DNA of 36,445 nt, taken from a virus. The notes under the pieces were generated by a model that had not been told where the DNA came from, made no database searches, and was given only the letters and a program-made list of their open reading frames with translations. Shown here piece by piece: positions 11,031 through 35,397 of the stretch (the first letter of the stretch is position 1; each line of letters starts with the position of its first letter). The stretch is from positions 1 through 36,445 of the IMG/VR virus record IMGVR_UViG_3300020057_000302; one strand, 5' to 3'. The translations under genes and the position numbers were made by a program.

Positions 11031-11063
11031 AGACGACTCGATCTCAAACAGGAGCCGTCTTTT
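11031..11063 (+). promoter_or_regulatory. hairpin covering the ribosome site of the nuclease gene
   Basis: AGACG-A-CTC (11031-11039) can pair with GAG-C-CGTCT (11052-11060) around a 12-nt loop, followed by TTT. The AGGAG ribosome site (11050-11054) of the downstream TTG start lies in the 3' arm. It may limit translation of the nuclease, or act as a weak terminator after the primase-helicase gene. Confidence 0.4.
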
Positions 11064-11820
11064 GGTCAACCTCATTCAGACTACACGTCCTGATGCAGAG
11101 AAGATTACAGAGCCGCAAGAGATCGAACTAGGACAAGTCAAAACGTGGAGCTACTCAGCACTAAAAGTGTACGAAGAGTGTGCTTACCGCACTTACATCG
11201 CGCGGGTGAAGAAGATCCAAGAGCCCTCTGGTCCAGCAGCTGACCGAGGCACTCTTATTCACCAAGCAGCCGAAGACTTCGTCAAAGGCAAACGCGATAC
11301 CCTGATTCCAGAACTCAAGAAACACTATGAGCAGGCGTTCCTGGACCTGCGAGAAGAATTCAAAGCTGGCCGTGCCAGCCTAGAGGGCGAATGGGGATAC
11401 ACCATCGACTGGGCAACGACCGGTTGGGTGGAAGACGATACGTGGGCACGTATCAAGCTCGACGCAATCGTCATGGAGTCGGATACGTCGGCTCGCGTGA
11501 TCGACTACAAATCAGGCAAGCGATACGGCAACGAGATTGCTCACGGGCAGCAAGGGCTGCTCTATGCCATCGGCACGTTCATGCGGTTCCCAGTGCTTGA
11601 GCATGTCACCACGGAGTTCTGGTACGTTGATCAGGACGGCAACCCGACCACGAAGCCCTATACACGAGACACAGCGCTCATGTTCATGCCGGGCTGGCAC
11701 AAACGCGGGGTGAAGATGACGACAGAGAAAGAGTTCAACCCTAGTCCCAGCAAACAGACATGCCGTTGGTGTTCGTTCAAAGACGGCGACGTTCCAGAGT
11801 GCAAGTGGGGCGTCAAATAA
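11062..11820 (+). CDS. Cas4/RecB-like PD-(D/E)XK nuclease
   Basis: A 252-aa nuclease of the RecB/Cas4 type. Motifs: WSYSALKVYEEC (29-40), GTLIH with His67, LDAI with Asp134, VIDYKSGK with Asp148 and Lys150, and QGLLYAIG (164-171). Cys40, Cys234, Cys237 and Cys247 (one before, three after the nuclease core) are placed as in the Fe-S cluster of Cas4 and AddB. The start is TTG 11062, with AGGAG seven bases upstream. Such phage enzymes usually act as 5'-3' or recombination exonucleases. The mini-CRISPR unit begins 17 bases after its stop, which makes a Cas4-type link worth testing, but replication or recombination remains the default role. Confidence 0.85.
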   Translation: MVNLIQTTRPDAEKITEPQEIELGQVKTWSYSALKVYEECAYRTYIARVKKIQEPSGPAADRGTLIHQAAEDFVKGKRDTLIPELKKHYEQAFLDLREEFKAGRASLEGEWGYTIDWATTGWVEDDTWARIKLDAIVMESDTSARVIDYKSGKRYGNEIAHGQQGLLYAIGTFMRFPVLEHVTTEFWYVDQDGNPTTKPYTRDTALMFMPGWHKRGVKMTTEKEFNPSPSKQTCRWCSFKDGDVPECKWGVK

Positions 11821-11837
11821 GGAGCCACTATGGAGAT

Positions 11838-11927
11838 GTCTCTCCCGCACACGCAGGGCTGAACCGCGTTTTATGGATTGGGCTATGGATCAAGAGGCGT
11901 CTCTCCCGCACACGCGGGGCTGAACCG
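11838..11927 (+). CRISPR. two-repeat, one-spacer mini-CRISPR unit, type I-E-like
   Basis: Two 29-nt repeats (11838-11866 and 11899-11927) flank a 32-nt spacer (11867-11898). The repeats differ at one base (A11855 versus G in copy 2). They carry the type I-E layout: a CCCGC-ACAC-GCGGG stem-loop in the middle (imperfect in copy 1) and an 8-nt end CTGAACCG, close to the ATGAACCG handle of many I-E arrays. Repeat and spacer lengths are exactly those usual for type I-E. Orientation matches transcription from the nuclease gene upstream. No cas1, cas2, cas3 or Cascade genes are in the window, so any crRNA would need host Cas proteins. No third repeat follows. Confidence 0.8.
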
Positions 11928-11948
11928 TCTATCGGTACCGACCGGAGA

Positions 11949-12059
11949 GTGGACGAGCTCTTCGCGAACATCATGTTTCACGACCCACTAGCTCACAACT
12001 CGCTGATGAGGGCGTCTCCCATCGTCTACTACATACAGACAGTACCTATCCATGACTGA
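11949..12059 (+). CDS. possible 36-37-aa ORF after the mini-CRISPR unit
   Basis: GTG at 11949 opens a short frame ending at TGA 12057-12059, which overlaps the next start by eight bases. The only ribosome-like sequence (CCGGAGA) sits too close to the GTG; an internal ATG at about 11973 has none. The product has no recognisable motif. It is listed because it fills most of the 124 bases between the CRISPR unit and the next gene; that stretch may simply be non-coding. Confidence 0.2.
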   Translation: MDELFANIMFHDPLAHNSLMRASPIVYYIQTVPIHD

Positions 12060-12279
12060 CTCCGTTCCAACCATACGAGGAAAGGCGAATAAGAACACCC
12101 AGTGGCACGGTAGGTGGGCTGAGTACCACACCATGCGCCAGCTAGAGATCAAGAAGCAACACGCACGTAGACCGATCAACGTCAGACTCACCGAAGCACA
12201 ACTGGCCATCAAGGCATTCCTCCGGCTTTGCAAAGTGAGACTGTATGGCTCTAATTCTCCTGAGAATAATCCAGATTAG
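12052..12279 (+). CDS. small basic hypothetical protein
   Basis: A 75-aa, strongly basic protein (many Lys, Arg and His in residues 8-50, for example RQLEIKKQHARRP), unrecognised. The N-terminal half looks disordered and could bind nucleic acid; LTEAQLAIKAFLRLCKVRLY looks like an amphipathic helix. It lies between the mini-CRISPR unit and a terminator, so it is probably in the same transcript as the Cas4-like gene. Confidence 0.6.
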   Translation: MTDSVPTIRGKANKNTQWHGRWAEYHTMRQLEIKKQHARRPINVRLTEAQLAIKAFLRLCKVRLYGSNSPENNPD

Positions 12280-12297: not shown

Positions 12298-12327
12298 CGC
12301 CCAGATCATCAGGTCTGTGGCGTTTTT
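12298..12327 (+). terminator. intrinsic terminator
   Basis: CGCCCAGA (12298-12305) pairs with TCTG-T-GGCG (12314-12322, one bulged T), followed by TTTTT at 12323-12327. It would end the transcript carrying the Cas4-like nuclease, the mini-CRISPR unit and the basic protein. Confidence 0.7.
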
Positions 12328-15311: not shown

Positions 15312-15971
15312 ATGTCAACTGACCTCGCTACTACGTCTACTGCAATGCCAGCCTACGCCAGCAAAGGCCCGAGCCGCGGAAACGAAAACGTCTCTGCAGA
15401 ACACCTGACGATCCCCCGGATCAAACTGCTTCAGAAGATGTCTGACGAAGTGGATCGCCACCACGCCAACTTCATCGAGGGAGCCAAAGACGGCGACTTC
15501 ATGAATAGCCTGACCCGTGAAATTCTCGGCACTGAACTGTATGTCATCAGCATCACGTTCAAGGACGAGTACGTGGTCTGGAAAGACCGCAAGAAAGGCG
15601 GCGGCTTTCTCGGATCGTTCAGGACCGAGGCAGAAGCCCGGACGGCTATCGACGCCCAGGACGCGCCGGAAGACTTCGCTACCAACCAGACGCACAGCCA
15701 TATTCTGGTTATCAAGGACGTGAAGACCGGCGGGCTCTCCAAGCCGGTGATCATGGACTTCACTTCGTCGAAACTCCGCGTTTCGCGTAACTGGAACAGC
15801 CAGATCAACATCCGTGGCGGCGACCGTTTCGCTAGCCTCTGGAAACTGGAATCCGTTCCGGTGAAGAACAAGAAGGGCGACGCCTTCATGAACCTCGAAA
15901 TCGGGTTCGTGGGCTGGGCTCAGGAAGATGACTACAAGAAAGCCGAGACGTACTACGAGCAGATGAAGTAA
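15312..15971 (+). CDS. conserved phage protein, possibly ssDNA-binding
   Basis: A 219-aa protein with an extended N-terminus and a core containing IPRIKLLQKMSDEV, YVVWKDRKKGGG, DFTSSKLRVSRNWNSQI and FVGWAQEDDYKKAETYYEQM. I associate this pattern with a widespread phage family found in replication and recombination modules; some members are annotated as single-stranded DNA-binding proteins, but I cannot confirm that. Its place between replication genes and a VRR-NUC-like endonuclease agrees with such a role. The ribosome site is weak (AAAGAAAG). Confidence 0.7.
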   Translation: MSTDLATTSTAMPAYASKGPSRGNENVSAEHLTIPRIKLLQKMSDEVDRHHANFIEGAKDGDFMNSLTREILGTELYVISITFKDEYVVWKDRKKGGGFLGSFRTEAEARTAIDAQDAPEDFATNQTHSHILVIKDVKTGGLSKPVIMDFTSSKLRVSRNWNSQINIRGGDRFASLWKLESVPVKNKKGDAFMNLEIGFVGWAQEDDYKKAETYYEQMK

Positions 15972-25737: not shown

Positions 25738-28700
25738 TTACTTCACGTTGTTTAGGATAGGTATCATACGGGTCCAGTCCCCGTCGAAGAATGTGTCGTC
25801 CATGGCGTCAAACATCGGTATGTTGGCTGTGAGCGGTGCCGCAATACCTTCGTATTTGAACGTATCCAGTGTGGTCAGAGCGAGTGCAAACGGCCCAGTG
25901 ACACCAGAACGGTTGAACAGCTTCAGGGCATAGTCAGCAGCCGTCACCTTGCGTGGGTTCGGGTTCAGCTGCTGGCCGGGGATAACCAGGGCCAGTAGTT
26001 CTTTAGCCCAATCCCTAGACGCCATGCTGAGCATTGTCAACGGTATCAGGGTTGTAGCCATCAGTATCGCCGGGAGGGCGGCGTCCATGACGTCGCCTTT
26101 TTCATTGTACCGATGCTTTATCTCACGCCCCAGACCGCCGAGCACGGTCTTGCCGAAGCCGTAGTAATACGACTTCAGCTGCCACACCATAGCGAAGTGC
26201 GGGTTGGACGCCAGCACAGGGCGCTGTGTGGAATCCGGGCGGATGATGGCTTCATCGGCGAACCGCGCGATGCCATCCCGGACGCGGAGGCCTTCTTCTG
26301 TGTTGAACTCGTGGTTATTGGCCACCCACGCGTGTACGTCGTCGCGCGTCAGACCAATCTCGGCCAGATAGCGCTCGTCGCGCTCATCGAAATCAGCCTT
26401 GTTGGCTACTTTCTTGATCCACTCGCTAGCCATGCCCACAGCGAACGAGCGCGTGAACTTTGTGAACCACTGGAGTCCGGTATAGTGGAAGAACATACTG
26501 GTGGCTTTCGCTCCTTTGGTGCCTACGAAGTTCATCTCACCGACGCCGATGAACGTGTTCTCCATAGCACGCGCAGTGACGATGCCCACCGTGCGGGCCA
26601 GCTCGTGGTACTCGCGCGAGACCATAGTCTTGTGCAGGGTGGTGAAGTACAGTCCGAGGTTATTGAACTCTTTGCTGCGGGTAGCCACGCCAGTGAAGTC
26701 GGTAAGCGACGTAAGTGTCGTGAACAGAAGCGTCGAGAACACAGTGATAACCATCGCTATCGAGTTAGCTGTGCGCCACGGCTTGCTCATATTCTCGCCA
26801 GTCTTGCCGAGGTTAGCCATGATGGCCTGATCGACGGCGCTGCGTTGTTCAGCTGGCACTTGGTCGAGCTCGTCAGCGATGTTCTTGTACCCGGCTGTGT
26901 AGCCTATGCCGCGGACCCTGTCGCCGTGCCCGTCCTGCACACCGCGCTTGTTGAACTCAACAATACGAGCCACGTAGTGCATGTACTTCCTGATAGTGAC
27001 CTGCTGCGGCACGAGCCAGCCGTGCTGGTCACCGGGCCTCGCATTACGCAGAGTGTTCGTTGCCATATGAGCCCACGTGCGCTCCAGCGCCGGGTCCATA
27101 CCGGGCGTGAGGCGTACGCGTTCGGTGGCGCGGTTCCAGAACTCTTTCAGCGCGTGCTTCTTCTCATTGGGTGTCGCTGTGTTCGGCACAGCGTCGATGA
27201 TCGCGCCTTCGGGTGTGGCGGTGATAGGGCCGATCTCATTTTTGACTTGGTCGAACAGCTCATCAATCGTGAAGCCTGCGTTGTTCGCGGTGGCCTGCCG
27301 CAAGATCTTGTTGCGCATCTCTCCAATAGGACGACCTTCCGCCGAGATCAGGAACAGACGCGCTGCCCTGTTCTGCACGGTCGGTGCGGTCCACGTGGCT
27401 CCAGCGGCCAGCGCAGCGTTCTCTTCGTCGACCAGTCGGTTCTCCAAGAGCCGCTCAACGCGCACGATCGGATCAACCGTGTGTTGCGTCACGTAATCAA
27501 TGAAGGCTTCCGCCTTGGCGACCGAAGTGATCTTGGGGTCGTTAGCCATGAGGAACGCGATGAACTCGTCGCGGTTCTCTTGGATCTTGTTCGTATCAAG
27601 CATACGACCGAAGCCGTGGTTCGCCCTGAAGCTGGCGTTCACGAGCTTGTAGTTCTTGCCGTTGATATACTGATGCATGTACGTTCTGTAGATTCTCTCA
27701 GACAGAGCGCGGATTCGTTTGGCCTCCGGCGTGGTCAGGTTCTGCGTAGCTATGGTCTCGTCGGCGGCTTCGTTCAAGATGTTGGTAACCCGATCCGTCT
27801 CCCATTCTTTGGGGTCGGTTCTGTCGTCGAAACCGAGAATATCGTCGACTTCATTGTTGTAGCGCGCCTCTGCCTCAAGACGCAGCTTGTGGATACCAGT
27901 GCCTTGGTTCGACTGCGACAACGTGCCGAAGATCTTGGCGATAGCTGTACCACCACGCGACGGTCTGCCGTCGACGAGCGGGCCGCTGCTATTGCGGCGC
28001 TCGCGCAGGAAGTCGTCGTTAGCCTTGAAAACACTGACAAAGTCCATGAGCCTAGGCATGACCGCGCCGCTCATCAGACGAGCAGTGGCCGCGCGTGTAC
28101 GAGCCACGACACTGGCTGGCACCGCCGCAGCAACCGCAGTCGCCATCGTGTGCATGGACATATCGAACAGCTGCGGTGTCTCGCGGTTCTGCTCCCGGGC
28201 CTCTATGTTACGCTCGATGATTTCTTCCATCACTGTAGCGAACGTCTTGTCTTTCTTGAGACGCCCGCCGAGCATCTTGTTCACGGCGTTGTAGAAGTCG
28301 TTGAATGTCTTGGCCAGCCGCTTGAACAACGAGTCGTTGAAGTTGGAGACGGTCTTGGCGTGGTCGTACACATACGCCATGACTTGGTCAGAGAACCACT
28401 CTTCGAACGCGAAGTCCTGGTCTTTGGCGGTGTAGTCCTCCGGGCGCTGGTCCATCTTCTTCACGAACTGCTTGAATGCTTCGCGCAGCTGCTTCTGACG
28501 TTCTTTACCGATGACGTTCTTGTGGTATTCTTGGTGGAACACGATGTGGCCGATCTCGTGCATGAGCACAGAGGCGGTGTAAGCGTCGGGTTCTTCCAGA
28601 ATCTTGCCGTCGAAGTTCTCTTGTTCGCGAAGCCCGGGATTGGCCTTGAGCGCCGCTTCCGACCAACGACTAGTGTTCGTCATGCTTTCCGGCAGTGTCG

Positions 28701-31700
28701 GGTTCGCTGTAGCGTCTCTGAGCACGATCACATACCGACCCTTACCGAACACGGCGGCTGGCACGTCCTTTTCGTCATCTCTGAGAGTTTTGATGGCGAG
28801 GAGCATGCTATCGCGGTCTGCTTCGAACTTACCATCTTCGCCTGCATACTCGTCTATATACTGTTCGAGGTGCTCCAGCGAGAACACATCGACGGGTCTG
28901 TCGAACTTGAACATACCGGATGCGATACCCAGCATGCGCTGTGTCAGCAGTCCGATGCTGCCATGCACACCGACGCCTACGTTATCCTTGTTAGCGGCGC
29001 GCTCCACGGCGTGCGTCTTCTTGTTGACGTACACCATCGCTGCGTTCGGAGGCGCGGGTCTGCCTTTCTGTTGCCTTGCAGTCTTGCTAGAGAAAACGGG
29101 TCTGCCTTTCTGTTCCGCTGCAGTCTTGCTAGAGAAACCGGGCGACGCTTCGTATCCCGCTTCCAGGACCAACCGGCTGAGGTTGGGGATGGTGCCGGTA
29201 TCATATTCCATATCCATGGCTTTGTCGTACAGCCAGAACGTAGCCTTGTCATGGGCGGTGCCGTACTTATCGGTCTTGAACGAGGGGGACTGGTAGGTGC
29301 CCTTCGTTGTGCGCAGCACTCCCGACACCTTGCCGTCCTTGCCCTTCGTCATCTTGGCGGTCATGCCTGTGGGGAAGCTAAGCAGATCATACCCAGACTC
29401 AGCGCCAGCTGCGCGAGCAGCCCGCTCGTCATACATACGATTCTTCGCACTCTCGATCCGCGCTTCCTGTATTTCCGCGAGCTGCGGATCGAACACGCCC
29501 TGTTTCTTCAGTTCTTGTTCGGCTCGTTCGTCGCCCAACCCGGTCACTTCTTCTTTTATATCGTCGGGGGAGAAGACATCTATGTTCTTGTATATAACAG
29601 TATTGCCGAGCCCGGCGAGTTTCTCTTTTTCGTTTGCGGGGCGCGTTTCACTGCGCGCAGCCGCCACAAGCGCATCGAACTTACTGCGCGGGAATTCTTT
29701 ATCGACTTGCGCGAGCGCACTGTCTTCCGACAGACCTTTTTTGCGCAGCTGCTTTTCGCGCAGGTTACGGTCGTCGAAGAACTTCCGCTCCGCGGCAAGA
29801 CCGCGTTTGATAGCCTGCTTACGCGCTTTGGCGTCCGCCGTGTTCATATCCGAAGTACGCGGGTCGGCAGCAGACAGCACATCATACAGCGTGTACAACG
29901 TGCCGCTTTTGCCGCGCATAGCGACCTCACGGCTGGCTCTGTAGTGCACGCGCTTTGTCGCGACCGGCGCATTCTGCTCGGGCGAGGACTCGCGTTCCTC
30001 AGGAGGAATCTCTGTGAGGATTCGTCCCTCGCTGTCGAACCCGATGAACTTCTCCTGCTCGCCGCGAAGCCCGATGTGGAACTCCAGCGCGCCAGTGAGC
30101 GACAGCGCCTTGAGCATAGTGATAAGACCTTGCTTCGTGCGCTGCGACTCTGACAGGCCTTCGCCTACCAGACCCTGTTTGGTTTGCGCGTTCAGCTTCA
30201 CGCCTGCCTGCGCGAGCACCTGCAGTCCGGGAGTTCCGGGGCCGGGTTTGCCTCCGAACTCTGGGTAGCCAGACAGCTTGATGAATTTGCCATCAGGTGT
30301 CTTAAGCCAGAAGAAGGTGCCTTTGCGTTCATCGAAACGCTTAGCCTTCTTGATGATATCTCTGACCGCCTTACGCTCAGCAATAGTCTCGCCCCACGTG
30401 TCGGCGTCGCGCTGCATTATCTGCAGCCGCCCTTCGCCAGTCTTCACGACTTCTAAGTCGGAGTCGGGGTTCGCTTCCTGGAGAGCAATCATCTTATCGA
30501 GCATCGAGTCAGACATTATGTCGACCACGTTATCGAGGCTCTCCGCCACGCCCTCTCCGGGCGCTATGGATTTGAGATAATCGAAGCGCTTCATAAAGTC
30601 GTGGTCACGCACAGCAGGGTCAGTCGCTGCGTACGATGCACCGATTGGTTCGCCTCGCTCAGCGTCAGCCTCCGCGAAGACGCGGTCCAGCTGCGTCTCG
30701 ATGTCCGTCGTGTCGTCTTCTGTGTTCGTGTCGTCTTCCTCAGCCATGTCCACGTTCATGAAGCGCGGGGTCAGCTCTTCAACATCTACTGCTTCAGACA
30801 CAGGCGGGATGAGCTTATCCAACAGTTCGTGGAGCTTCTTGTCCGAGCGTTCGGGGGAAAGAAGGCCCTCCATAAACGAAATGATGCGCTTGGCTGTATC
30901 AGAAAAGAACCTCGATAGCTGCTGCGCGAACGTAAGGCCGTCATAATCCACAGAAGTGGTGCTGAGTATATCTGTCTCTGTTATGCCGTAGCTCTGCAGC
31001 GCCCAGCTAGCAAACTGGTTGGCAAAATACTCCTGCGGGTCCCTGTGTTCATTACTCGCAGCGTTGTCTTCGGGGCTAGGGATATAGTGTTGTCGTGTGT
31101 CGTTGCGCTCCCGCAAAATATTAAACAGCTCTACTTTGTCTGCAGGCGTGAGTATGTTGGCGAACGCCCAGTATCCTAGTTGGTGTGCTAGGACAAAAAC
31201 AGGGGGGCGTCCGACGCCGCCAACAGGTCGGCTCTCATTGCGGGACGTATACCCACGGTGCAGCACAACCTCGTTGCTCTCTACGTGGTACGTTCCGGCG
31301 GCTACTCGCCCGTCGCCGCGGTCTAGCCGCAGACCATACTCTTTGCCTATGTCTTCTACAACAGCGGGGAATACTTTCCCATTAGCCTCAGCCAGACGAC
31401 CCAGCAGCGCCGTGGCAAACGCCCTCTCGGTAGGTGTGTAGTCTTTAGTTATCTTGGAAATAAACCTACTAGACGCTTCGGCAGACGCGCCGCCGCGCTG
31501 TACTTTGCTGCCCTGCATTCTTGCTATAACTTCCGCAGCGTCTACAGCGGCGTCGAGCGCCTGTTTTCCACGGGCGTCTTTTCTACCCGGCAGATTCCAC
31601 GACACGGTGGAAAGTACCATGTACGCAAAATTGTCTAGCGCGAGCGCACTAATGCTACCTCTACGTTCTAATGCTTCTGCAATATCGTCGCGCATCCTCT

Positions 31701-34700
31701 GCGTCATTATCGGAGCGGTATCAGCTATGCTGCTGTGGTCCAGCATTGCGATAAGTACTTCAGCGTCGGCTCTGGTGAGTGGCACTTCAGTTGTGGCCGC
31801 GGCAGCTTCAGTTATAGCGGAAGGTGCCTGTTTCACGACTGCTGGCTTCGCGCCTTCCGGCACGGTGAACGTGGTGTTGCCACCAACGTCGAGTATCTCT
31901 CCCGAGCCTTTGATAACAGCATACATCTTGCCAGACAGAGACGCTGATTTGATGATGCCCTCGACCTCGTGCGTTTCTTCCGTAGTCTTATCATACAGAC
32001 GCTGCTGGCTAACGTGCGGCGTTACCGGCTTGCCGGAGCTTGCGACATCGAGAGCACGTATGTCTTGGTGTCTCTTCTCTATGGCATTTTTAGCTTTTTG
32101 CGCGGAAGCGTTTGCGGCGTCGGCTTTCAGCGTATTGGCTTTAGCGGCTTCTTCCGCAGTCGTAGCTGTCGGCTGGGTCTTCGGCGCTCCCTTGGTGTAG
32201 ACGCGCTGCGTCTTCTTCTTCACCACCTCAACGGGCTTGCTTCTGATAGCCTTGCCCGCTGTATCTTCCTCAGCTGCTTCTTTTGCAGCCGCCGCCGCGT
32301 CTTCTGTATCCATAATATTAAGGATAGAGCGCATCTCATTTCTGGCTTGCGTAATATCTACGGGCGGCGGTGTAAGGGTGTCTTCTCCCGCTGCGTCGTA
32401 CACGACTTTAGGGATAGCGGCCTTCGTCGCGGTGGCTTTCTCGGCAACGGGCTTGCTTCTGATAGCCTCGCGCGCTGTATCTTCCTCAGCTGCTTCTTTT
32501 GCAGCCGCCGCTGCGTCTTCTGTATCCATAATATTAAGGATAGAGAGCATCTCATTTCTGGCTTGCGTAATATCTACGGGCGGCGGTGTAAGGGTGTCTT
32601 CTTTGGCGACTTTAGGGATAGCGGCCTTCGTCGCGGTGGCTTTCTCAGCTGCTTCTTTTGCAGCCGCCGCCGCGTCTTCTATATCCATACTTTTAAGGAT
32701 AGAGAGCATCTCATTTCTGGCTTCCGTAATATCTACGGGCGGCGGTGTAAGGGTGTCTTCTTTGGCGACTTTAGGGATAGCGGCCTTCGTCGCGGTGGCT
32801 TTCTCAGCTGCTTCTTTTGCAGCCGCCGCTGCGTCTTCTATATCCATACTTTTAAGGATAGAGAGCATCTCATTTCTGGCTTGCGTAATATCTACGGGCG
32901 GCGGTGTAAGGGTGTCTTCTTTGGCGACTTGTTCCGCGCCAAGGCGCGACTGGCGCGACTCAAGGGCCACGTCAGCAGGAACAGGGTTATCCACACGATA
33001 CCTAGGATTATTATTGACAATAAGGTCAGCAGCGTTTTTAGCTGCAGCCTGGCCTTGTTCATTAGTCAGCTCCTCATGCACAACCAGGCCTTTTAGATCA
33101 ACAACCTGGACTGCGGTAGAGCCGTCAACTGGCTTCCCGGCGGAGAACCCCAGCGCGTGCTGCAATGAAACTTCGTCGGCACCGCTCGCGATCACCTGCT
33201 GCACAAGAGACATATCCGCGGATATGACCCGACCGCGCTTCGGTATGTCCGCGAAGTAGGCTTTCTTGCCGTCGACCTTGAACATACCGATACCGCCACT
33301 GTCTGTAGGCGGCGGGCCGAACTTCTGTTCAGCAGAAACCCACATGGCTTTCTTACCCGTGGTGGGGTCTAGAGTAGCATTCAACTGCGCGGTAAGCGTG
33401 GCCACGGATTCGGGGCTTGAGACGTTCTCCAGCGCGCGGTCGCTGACGCCGGTCAGTTCATTATCAACCTTAGTCGCAACGCGTGCGTCCGCGACCTTCT
33501 TGACAATAGCCGACGCTGCGTTGACCGCGCCAGCCAAGAGCGAGGCCATATTCGATGCGGGCGGTGTGCCGGGGGCAGGGGGAGGAGCACCGGGAGCAGT
33601 AGGAGCACCGGGAGCACCGGGAGCGCGAGTAGGGCTGGGTCTACCGCCTGCACGAGCAGGAATAGCTGCGGCCACGGCACCACCGGCACCACCAAAGGCA
33701 CCGCCACCGAAGAACGCCGCGAACGCACTCTGCGCGAGACGCATCTGCACTTCTTCATCCGCGTACTGTGGGTCTACCTCTTTGCGCTGTATAATCAGTC
33801 CGGCTTCTTGGCCGACCTCTGATGCTGTCCCAAGCAGTCCCGATACCAGAGCCGTTTTGCCAACCTTGAAAGCGTAATCTTTCAGGAGACTCTTGCCAGC
33901 CACACGCGCGGTTTTCTCCAACGCGAGCGTCTTGAGCGCGAGCAAGATAGCACCCTCGCCACCAACACCGATAGCCGCCAGTGGCACACCGATAGCAGCC
34001 GACTGCAGCGCGCGTTCGCGTGTCAGTGGTACTCCGGCCTCGTCGAACTCTGCGAAACTCTCGCCAGACATAGGCACATATTCAGACCCGAACGCGCCTG
34101 CGACAGCACCGACTTTGAAAGCAGGCGCTCGACGTATCATACCATACAGACCAGTCGCCACGGCTTCTTCAGCCGTGGTCAGCGCCCCGGCCCTGAGCGC
34201 CGCCCGCGCCGCGGTCTTGGCTGCCGCTGTCTCAGCGGACTTAACCGCTTGCTCCAGCGCCATCACACGGATCCGCTTCTTGACAATATCTTTCACGAGC
34301 TGGTTGGTGATCGTGCCTAGCGCGGCCTCTCCGCTCAGCTTCGCTACGGCAGCAACACCACCTGTTGCAAGTGTAGACGCGATAGCGACGAGAACTGAAG
34401 GCGTGATCTGTCCAACAGACGACACGGCCTGCTCGATGAACCCGCCGAATGACGGGGCGTTCATGAACTGTTCGAAGTTCTGCATGCCCTCTGTGGCATG
34501 TGCGCCGAGAGCTTCTTGTTTACGCGCGGCTTCTATGCGCCGTTGCGCGGAGCGATCTTTGCCCACGATGGTATCGACCATAGCACCGAAGTACTCGGCG
34601 TCGGCGTTCATGCCATGGACACCACTCGTCACGCCAGCCCCGAATACTTCCCCTATGTTGCCCGGCGCGGTTTTAACATACGGGGTGGGGCGTACCTGCT

Positions 34701-35397
34701 TAACCATCGACGCAATCAGAGGCGTGGTGTCGCGATACGCCGCGAAACCCTGCATGATCGAAGTATCTCTGTTTGCTTTAGGAGCGGTGGTGCCGCTGAG
34801 TATACCGTCCACGTAAGACGTATCTACTCCGGTGGCTGCCGGAGCAGCCAGACTAGACTTTTTTCCAGGTAGCGTGCCAGTTGGTCCCTCTAATTTGGTG
34901 TACTTGGCAGACCACTTGTTGGCGAGGTCACCGGCAGTGGCGTTCTCGTCGACGCCATTCAGCAGTGCCTGTTGTCTACCGACAACGTCCACCGCTTTGC
35001 GAGAGGGGTTGCGTAGGAGTTTGGCTGCGCCGCCGCCGCCCTGCTGGTGCGCGAGATACAGGTCCGAGCCCGTGGGTTCACGGCCTATTTTCTCGCGGAG
35101 ATACGCTTGGTTCCGTGTGGCTACCTTCGCCGCGCCTAGCGCCGCCTTGTAGGGGTCGAACCTGTCTGCTTCGGTCGGCGTGTCGTAGTCAGCGCCGAAC
35201 TGTTCCATGATCTGCCACGGGCCGCGCGCAGACGACTTGGGGTTTACCACATTCGTGCCGAATGCGCTCTCGATGTGAGCCGAGTTACGCAGGAAGTCTT
35301 TGGGTAGATTCGGGTACGCCTTCTCGGCGGCATTGATAGCCGCGTCCATGTCTTTCGCCGACACGCCTTTTGAGTAGTCTTTTTTAGCGTCAGTCAT
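25738..35397 (-). CDS. giant polyvalent virion protein with lytic transglycosylase domain
   Basis: A 3219-aa protein, probably injected with the DNA. Residues about 10-150 are a soluble-lytic-transglycosylase-type domain (catalytic Glu43 in HIESAFG, then ARGPWQIM), which would open peptidoglycan at entry. A Pro/Ala/Gly linker lies near 582-620 and 53-aa repeats at about 823-1050. A degenerate metallopeptidase-like segment (AHQLGYW, H1405) and an intact one (HEIGH, 2280-2284, with FEEWFSD downstream) follow. The last 600 residues resemble LPD38 of large polyvalent proteins, including the hydrophobic stretches MVITVFSTLLFTTLTSL and ILMATTLIPLTMLSMA. Similar giants (DarB-like, T7 gp16-like) protect or deliver phage DNA. 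GGAG precedes the ATG. Confidence 0.88.
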   Translation of the reverse strand: MTDAKKDYSKGVSAKDMDAAINAAEKAYPNLPKDFLRNSAHIESAFGTNVVNPKSSARGPWQIMEQFGADYDTPTEADRFDPYKAALGAAKVATRNQAYLREKIGREPTGSDLYLAHQQGGGGAAKLLRNPSRKAVDVVGRQQALLNGVDENATAGDLANKWSAKYTKLEGPTGTLPGKKSSLAAPAATGVDTSYVDGILSGTTAPKANRDTSIMQGFAAYRDTTPLIASMVKQVRPTPYVKTAPGNIGEVFGAGVTSGVHGMNADAEYFGAMVDTIVGKDRSAQRRIEAARKQEALGAHATEGMQNFEQFMNAPSFGGFIEQAVSSVGQITPSVLVAIASTLATGGVAAVAKLSGEAALGTITNQLVKDIVKKRIRVMALEQAVKSAETAAAKTAARAALRAGALTTAEEAVATGLYGMIRRAPAFKVGAVAGAFGSEYVPMSGESFAEFDEAGVPLTRERALQSAAIGVPLAAIGVGGEGAILLALKTLALEKTARVAGKSLLKDYAFKVGKTALVSGLLGTASEVGQEAGLIIQRKEVDPQYADEEVQMRLAQSAFAAFFGGGAFGGAGGAVAAAIPARAGGRPSPTRAPGAPGAPTAPGAPPPAPGTPPASNMASLLAGAVNAASAIVKKVADARVATKVDNELTGVSDRALENVSSPESVATLTAQLNATLDPTTGKKAMWVSAEQKFGPPPTDSGGIGMFKVDGKKAYFADIPKRGRVISADMSLVQQVIASGADEVSLQHALGFSAGKPVDGSTAVQVVDLKGLVVHEELTNEQGQAAAKNAADLIVNNNPRYRVDNPVPADVALESRQSRLGAEQVAKEDTLTPPPVDITQARNEMLSILKSMDIEDAAAAAKEAAEKATATKAAIPKVAKEDTLTPPPVDITEARNEMLSILKSMDIEDAAAAAKEAAEKATATKAAIPKVAKEDTLTPPPVDITQARNEMLSILNIMDTEDAAAAAKEAAEEDTAREAIRSKPVAEKATATKAAIPKVVYDAAGEDTLTPPPVDITQARNEMRSILNIMDTEDAAAAAKEAAEEDTAGKAIRSKPVEVVKKKTQRVYTKGAPKTQPTATTAEEAAKANTLKADAANASAQKAKNAIEKRHQDIRALDVASSGKPVTPHVSQQRLYDKTTEETHEVEGIIKSASLSGKMYAVIKGSGEILDVGGNTTFTVPEGAKPAVVKQAPSAITEAAAATTEVPLTRADAEVLIAMLDHSSIADTAPIMTQRMRDDIAEALERRGSISALALDNFAYMVLSTVSWNLPGRKDARGKQALDAAVDAAEVIARMQGSKVQRGGASAEASSRFISKITKDYTPTERAFATALLGRLAEANGKVFPAVVEDIGKEYGLRLDRGDGRVAAGTYHVESNEVVLHRGYTSRNESRPVGGVGRPPVFVLAHQLGYWAFANILTPADKVELFNILRERNDTRQHYIPSPEDNAASNEHRDPQEYFANQFASWALQSYGITETDILSTTSVDYDGLTFAQQLSRFFSDTAKRIISFMEGLLSPERSDKKLHELLDKLIPPVSEAVDVEELTPRFMNVDMAEEDDTNTEDDTTDIETQLDRVFAEADAERGEPIGASYAATDPAVRDHDFMKRFDYLKSIAPGEGVAESLDNVVDIMSDSMLDKMIALQEANPDSDLEVVKTGEGRLQIMQRDADTWGETIAERKAVRDIIKKAKRFDERKGTFFWLKTPDGKFIKLSGYPEFGGKPGPGTPGLQVLAQAGVKLNAQTKQGLVGEGLSESQRTKQGLITMLKALSLTGALEFHIGLRGEQEKFIGFDSEGRILTEIPPEERESSPEQNAPVATKRVHYRASREVAMRGKSGTLYTLYDVLSAADPRTSDMNTADAKARKQAIKRGLAAERKFFDDRNLREKQLRKKGLSEDSALAQVDKEFPRSKFDALVAAARSETRPANEKEKLAGLGNTVIYKNIDVFSPDDIKEEVTGLGDERAEQELKKQGVFDPQLAEIQEARIESAKNRMYDERAARAAGAESGYDLLSFPTGMTAKMTKGKDGKVSGVLRTTKGTYQSPSFKTDKYGTAHDKATFWLYDKAMDMEYDTGTIPNLSRLVLEAGYEASPGFSSKTAAEQKGRPVFSSKTARQQKGRPAPPNAAMVYVNKKTHAVERAANKDNVGVGVHGSIGLLTQRMLGIASGMFKFDRPVDVFSLEHLEQYIDEYAGEDGKFEADRDSMLLAIKTLRDDEKDVPAAVFGKGRYVIVLRDATANPTLPESMTNTSRWSEAALKANPGLREQENFDGKILEEPDAYTASVLMHEIGHIVFHQEYHKNVIGKERQKQLREAFKQFVKKMDQRPEDYTAKDQDFAFEEWFSDQVMAYVYDHAKTVSNFNDSLFKRLAKTFNDFYNAVNKMLGGRLKKDKTFATVMEEIIERNIEAREQNRETPQLFDMSMHTMATAVAAAVPASVVARTRAATARLMSGAVMPRLMDFVSVFKANDDFLRERRNSSGPLVDGRPSRGGTAIAKIFGTLSQSNQGTGIHKLRLEAEARYNNEVDDILGFDDRTDPKEWETDRVTNILNEAADETIATQNLTTPEAKRIRALSERIYRTYMHQYINGKNYKLVNASFRANHGFGRMLDTNKIQENRDEFIAFLMANDPKITSVAKAEAFIDYVTQHTVDPIVRVERLLENRLVDEENAALAAGATWTAPTVQNRAARLFLISAEGRPIGEMRNKILRQATANNAGFTIDELFDQVKNEIGPITATPEGAIIDAVPNTATPNEKKHALKEFWNRATERVRLTPGMDPALERTWAHMATNTLRNARPGDQHGWLVPQQVTIRKYMHYVARIVEFNKRGVQDGHGDRVRGIGYTAGYKNIADELDQVPAEQRSAVDQAIMANLGKTGENMSKPWRTANSIAMVITVFSTLLFTTLTSLTDFTGVATRSKEFNNLGLYFTTLHKTMVSREYHELARTVGIVTARAMENTFIGVGEMNFVGTKGAKATSMFFHYTGLQWFTKFTRSFAVGMASEWIKKVANKADFDERDERYLAEIGLTRDDVHAWVANNHEFNTEEGLRVRDGIARFADEAIIRPDSTQRPVLASNPHFAMVWQLKSYYYGFGKTVLGGLGREIKHRYNEKGDVMDAALPAILMATTLIPLTMLSMASRDWAKELLALVIPGQQLNPNPRKVTAADYALKLFNRSGVTGPFALALTTLDTFKYEGIAAPLTANIPMFDAMDDTFFDGDWTRMIPILNNVK
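29056..29139 (-). repeat. 42-bp direct duplication in the giant gene
   Basis: Two adjacent 42-bp copies, starting at 29056 and 29098 on the + strand, encode FSSKTAAEQKGRPV and FSSKTARQQKGRPA. They differ at a few bases. A small local in-frame duplication. Confidence 0.8.
32250..32935 (-). repeat. about 159-bp tandem repeats in the giant gene
   Basis: Four units, each encoding about 53 residues beginning EDTLTPPPVDIT and passing through an Ala-rich helix (EDAAAAAKEAAEKAT). Units one and two are almost identical; units three and four share an inserted EEDTAREAIRSKPV-type segment. The charged, Ala-rich composition suggests long flexible helices spacing two enzymatic parts of the protein. Confidence 0.9.

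Follow-up and report, generated by a model that had tools for sequence, protein, structure and literature searches.

Single-spacer phage mini-arrays and solitary repeats are both already established. Phage mini-arrays usually hold one spacer, directed mostly against related viruses (PMC8616872, PMC11656645, PMC6858448). In phage and prophage mini-CRISPR arrays as described by Faure, Shmakov et al. (2019) and reviewed in PMC8616872 and PMC11656645, one spacer lies between two host-like repeats, in an intergenic position and with no cas genes, and the absence of a leader is reported in the discussion of PMC6858448. A spacer match to a related virus is common among viral mini-arrays, without being universal or required for membership; PMC8616872 gives potential targets for 67% of the spacers in viral and 93% of those in proviral mini-arrays. 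The viral mini-arrays of archaeal SPV1 and SPV2 (Medvedeva et al., 2019; PMC6858448) are likewise cas-less, with one or two spacers and host-like repeats; their leaders contain promoters, their targets in the rival virus are known, and they show turnover between close relatives. Racr units (Camara-Wilpert et al., 2023; PMC10651486) are intergenic viral mimics of host repeats that in principle bind Cas6. A Racr candidate is a solitary repeat with no second copy beside it, and RacrIF1 has no 5' handle.

The array considered here lies in a virus record of 36,445 nt, analysed at its full length and referred to below as the window, and is another example of these established forms. It is carried by a virus, has one spacer of normal length between two repeats that resemble bacterial chromosomal ones, is intergenic, has no cas genes among the ORFs scanned, and is as leaderless as the phage and prophage arrays. 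It differs from those arrays in that no target was found, the full repeat occurs in no sampled host, and one of the stems is weakened. In contrast to the SPV1 and SPV2 arrays, it has neither a leader nor a target that was found, and their spacer turnover is matched by that of a comparison group of other phages, described below, and not by the phage of the window. With Racrs it shares the intergenic mimicry of a host repeat and, in principle, the ability to bind Cas6; unlike them, it has a second repeat 61 nt away at exact spacing, and it includes the handle sequence that RacrIF1 lacks. The locus extends the known phage-carried mini-arrays by a type I-E case that is probably alphaproteobacterial.

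Repeat geometry and genomic setting

Repeat 1 (11838-11866; GTCTCTCCCGCACACGCAGGGCTGAACCG) and repeat 2 (11899-11927; GTCTCTCCCGCACACGCGGGGCTGAACCG) are each 29 nt long and enclose a 32-nt spacer (11867-11898; CGTTTTATGGATTGGGCTATGGATCAAGAGGC), all on the + strand, giving a 29/32/29 geometry with a period of 61 nt. The sole difference between the copies is at repeat position 18 (A11855 in repeat 1, G11916 in repeat 2). The original prediction had described two 29-nt repeats with one mismatch around a 32-nt spacer, in the geometry of type I-E, and both the coordinates and the shuffles agree with it: with up to three mismatches allowed, the 36,445-base record holds two copies only, and none is expected from 100 shuffles.

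These counts bear on whether the repeats arose by chance, or are a coding or structural repeat that resembles a CRISPR. An ORF (11760-12059) does run stop-free across the array, as a coding repeat might require; however, it begins inside the upstream exonuclease gene, and because 61 nt is not divisible by three the two copies fall in different frames, which excludes a coding repeat. The expectation of zero copies in shuffled sequence and the exact 23-nt identity with chromosomal arrays, set out below, also contradict this reading, which we regard as highly improbable.

The array is intergenic and lies in operon sense (+ strand) within the replication operon, starting 17 nt past the stop of a lambda-type PD-(D/E)XK exonuclease gene (11062-11820, + strand; PHROG 69, E 6.6e-27; Pfam PF12705, E 1.4e-17), the last gene before it. 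Given this orientation and the proximity to a phage replication gene, transcription of the array is likely, judging from the sequence. Of the terminator that had been placed downstream, what stands is a weak consensus match at 12302-12317, which lies about 375 nt downstream and is no commoner than in shuffles. The array is followed by a possible 36-aa gene (11949-12059, + strand; GTG start with GGAG upstream) with no family match, and by a 75-aa ORF (12052-12279, + strand) for which no relatives were found. In agreement with the original prediction, no cas gene was identified among the ORFs scanned in the 36,445-nt window. We considered the neighbouring exonuclease as a candidate Cas4 adaptation gene and rejected it: its matches to Cas4 profiles are weak and partial, its lambda-exonuclease/PDDEXK scores are strong, and it is conserved in at least 77 related loci, none of which showed a repeat in the sequence examined.

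Repeat 1 follows the exonuclease stop after 17 nt that hold no type I-E leader, and comparison of the upstream sequence with the 100-nt stretches preceding nine bacterial arrays gave no shared 10-mer; a TTTGACAT-type motif is common to several of those nine upstream regions. Because the leader is absent, the mini-array is not a complete type I-E array; it is a leaderless, cas-less derivative of one. Spacer gain by ordinary leader-directed Cas1-Cas2 integration is therefore unlikely, and spacer exchange by recombination with host arrays, a route suggested for phage arrays (PMC6858448), fits better.

Chromosomal and viral repeats with the same core

A search of host CRISPR arrays with the repeat had been expected to predict the host as well, and it did so in part. 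The full 29-mer is absent from all 84,980 species genomes searched. Its last 23 nt, in contrast, are letter-identical in 16 stretches of the same genomes, most of them true multi-spacer arrays; all differences between the phage repeat and the main repeats of the core-carrying arrays fall within positions 1-6. The closest chromosomal repeats found have two mismatches (GTCTCCCCCGCACACGCGGGGATGAACCG) and three mismatches over 29 nt; in samples of 385 genomes of one class and 250 genomes of one order, repeats within three mismatches occur in two genomes only. Carriers of the 23-nt core are mostly Alphaproteobacteria (Hyphomicrobium and its kin, Rhizobium paknamense, Hankyongella and others), and Cas6e (PF08798) is encoded in nine of the ten core-carrying genomes checked. 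Near-identical type I-E arrays thus occur in bacteria, and the identity of the core with the repeats of Cas6e-encoding genomes, together with the repeat 2 hairpin and the 8-nt handle described below, upholds the earlier description of a cas-less, phage-borne type I-E mini-array. Because the exact 29-nt repeat occurs in no sampled genome, the host can be predicted only as probably alphaproteobacterial. Host spacers compared with the window gave best alignments with 8 of 25 or 9 of 32 mismatches, which amounts to no match.

A contig of a Hyphomicrobium MAG (L017) carries one solitary repeat at 2697-2725, preceded by a leader that matches that of the long array in L027. This solitary repeat may be an array whose spacer cannot be recognised, or it may reflect a contig junction.

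The 23-nt core also occurs in six other viral contigs, each time as part of a small array with one or two spacers; the end repeats of some are degenerate. Among these we could define one phage group, made up of IMGVR_UViG 3300031873_000012, 3300032516_005935, 3300032516_002767 and 3300031746_003562, together with a further contig, L024. The five share 97-98% identity over long stretches, falling to about 90-97% nearer the array. Their one-spacer array (L004, L005, L006 and L007 from IMG/VR, and L024) lies around 2480-2560 in - strand numbering, with a constant first repeat, a constant trailer of at least 100 nt, a degenerate second repeat (GCGGGGCAAAAGAA) and three different spacers. The presence of different spacers in near-identical phages indicates that spacer turnover is real in phage arrays with this core, which runs counter to the idea that such repeats are conserved as part of a coding or RNA structure with no spacer turnover. 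With this group, the way in which leaderless phage arrays exchange one spacer for another becomes open to study. DNA polymerase, portal and terminase genes are present in the two group records scanned. The contig L024 (JAUQYW010000373.1) is filed under a Candidatus Sigynarchaeota MAG; its identity with the bacteriophage group is about 90-99%, and it is for that reason probably mis-binned.

The predicted crRNA and its possible roles

Cas6e is the processing enzyme of type I-E systems, and a type I-E crRNA needs a 5' handle and a 3' hairpin. Sequences for both ends are present here, since repeat 1 would yield the 8-nt handle CTGAACCG 5' of the spacer and repeat 2 an intact hairpin 3' of it. The type I-E stem-loop claimed for the repeat is well formed in repeat 2 (-11.0 kcal/mol, z -2.5); in repeat 1 it is weakened by a C-A mismatch at position 18 (-5.9 kcal/mol, z -0.3), which could reduce Cas6e cutting and formation of the 5' handle. 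Rfam and tRNA scans of the 36,445-nt window gave no match.

We favour, with moderate confidence, a leaderless but guide-competent single-spacer mini-array that uses the type I-E Cas proteins of the host against a competitor. In such a scheme, a phage of virulent type would have acquired the mini-array from a type I-E host and would co-transcribe it with the replication operon. Host Cas6e would then cut both repeats to give a 61-nt crRNA composed of the CTGAACCG handle, the 32-nt spacer and a 21-nt hairpin part, and this crRNA would load into host Cascade and act on a competing virus or plasmid that has a matching protospacer. Counted for a guide array are the 29/32/29 geometry with its period that is not a multiple of three, the 23-nt type I-E identity, the nearest chromosomal repeats at two to three mismatches, the Cas6e genes in nine of ten genomes, the presence of both crRNA ends, the intergenic site in operon sense, the one- and two-spacer arrays of the same core in other phages, and the spacer turnover in one phage group. 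Counted against it are the weak hairpin of repeat 1 and the lack of a leader, of an exact host repeat and of any protospacer found, the last in contrast to the 67% and 93% of spacers with potential targets cited above.

A spacer search against phage and plasmid sequences had been proposed as a check on the array, and no protospacer came out of the viral collection, the isolated phages or the plasmids. Four seed-pattern and codon-wobble scans of the viral collection, which tolerate only set kinds of mismatch, returned zero matches; isolated phages and plasmids gave only alignments with E of 0.9 or worse that cover at most 72% of the spacer. With up to three mismatches allowed, no protospacer was found in the records of 50 relatives or in 11 genomes with related repeats, and comparison of the spacer-frame peptides with the window and its relatives gave nothing convincing. 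Covering these sets and these kinds of mismatch, the search gives a weak negative.

The missing target and the damaged stem of repeat 1 make the main rival more likely, namely a Racr-like decoy: Cas6e and Cas7 of the host would be sequestered on the repeat-spacer-repeat RNA and Cascade blocked, whatever the content of the spacer. Here the weakened first stem would favour an aberrant RNA without a handle, bound through the intact repeat 2, much as Racrs mimic host repeats and, when the 5' handle is missing, give a dead-end Cas6f-Cas7f complex (PMC10651486). A spacer without a match in any of the sets above is likewise what a decoy would permit. However, two full repeats at exact type I-E spacing and an intact handle sequence exceed what a decoy needs, no acr-like neighbour was found among the window genes scanned, and the methods of the Racr survey define solitary units and set arrays apart (PMC10651486), a definition from which the present locus departs with its second copy 61 nt off. 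We therefore treat the decoy as a tentative and somewhat doubtful alternative to the guide array. A hybrid of the two, in which repeat 1 is damaged, Cas6e processes mainly repeat 2 and the RNA acts as a dominant-negative, spacer-tailed Racr, seems to us quite improbable; if true, it would point to a way for guide arrays to become anti-CRISPR RNAs, or the reverse, while carried by phages.

The spacer itself might instead direct crRNA-guided control of a host or phage gene by partial complementarity, with silencing in place of cleavage. In favour of this, its frame 1 is open and protein-like (RFMDWAMDQE). Yet no near match with up to nine mismatches was found in the window or in the loci of relatives, and the 50 relatives' records and 11 related-repeat genomes contained none at three mismatches or fewer. 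We consider silencing very unlikely.

The carrier phage and its relatives

The carrier of the array is a podovirus-like phage, whose genes in the window include a family A DNA polymerase, a primase-like protein, the exonuclease, a helicase, tail fibre proteins, an internal virion protein and an Rz-like spanin. Its isolated relatives are remote (about 30-37% protein identity), with Pseudomonas phage KPP25 and Aeromonas phage phiA008 matched through the replication genes. In a DNA search of isolated phages a 2-kb region gave no match, and the array alone gave a 25-nt match at chance level (E 2).

Searching with the exonuclease recovered at least 77 viral loci with 50-63% identity in the best segment, among the 80 pattern matches examined; further or closer relatives may therefore exist. 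These share a gene order, where contigs reach, of polymerase, primase, exonuclease and then helicase, with a gp223-like gene ahead of the helicase in about one third. Among the relatives, the stretch from exonuclease to helicase is highly variable in both length and content, and neither the repeat nor any CRISPR-like repeat pair was found there in the sequence examined from the 77 loci, which covered up to 5 kb on each side. Neither a variant of the window's repeat in other viruses nor a sister of the window's phage carrying the array was found. Given the absence from the relatives' sequence and the variability of the interval, the array is most simply viewed as a lineage-specific gain at a variable spot. 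A Shine-Dalgarno-like AGGAG and an ATG at 11830, from which ten codons (MEMSLPHTQG) stay open before the frame closes within repeat 1 (11820-11862, + strand), are possibly the start of a small gene truncated by the array. In several relatives a small gene begins at the corresponding place, and the array may for this reason have landed inside such a gene.

The restriction of the array to the window's phage among these loci would also suit an inert or transient relic, that is, a repeat-spacer-repeat fragment taken from a host array by recombination and without function so far. The lack of a leader and of a target that was found, and the mutation already present in one repeat, point the same way. 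Against this, a single substitution separates the repeats, and the 3' parts that are critical for function are undamaged; arrays of this kind are retained by independent phages, and one group turns over its spacer; and inert DNA in a compact operon would be expected to be lost. We judge a relic to be unlikely, and prefer the guide array. The carrier lineage is widespread and its sampled members are otherwise without the array, which allows the gain to be placed against a conserved gene order.

Three further features of the window may be recorded. A single 3219-aa ORF (25738-35397, - strand) fills roughly one quarter of the record; its only PHROG matches are short, of unknown function and located towards either end. 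The region 15312-15971 gives a strong match to a Pam3 phage gp34-like protein (PF23977, E 1.9e-57), and 371-1231 matches DUF6745 (PF20530, E 1.9e-34).
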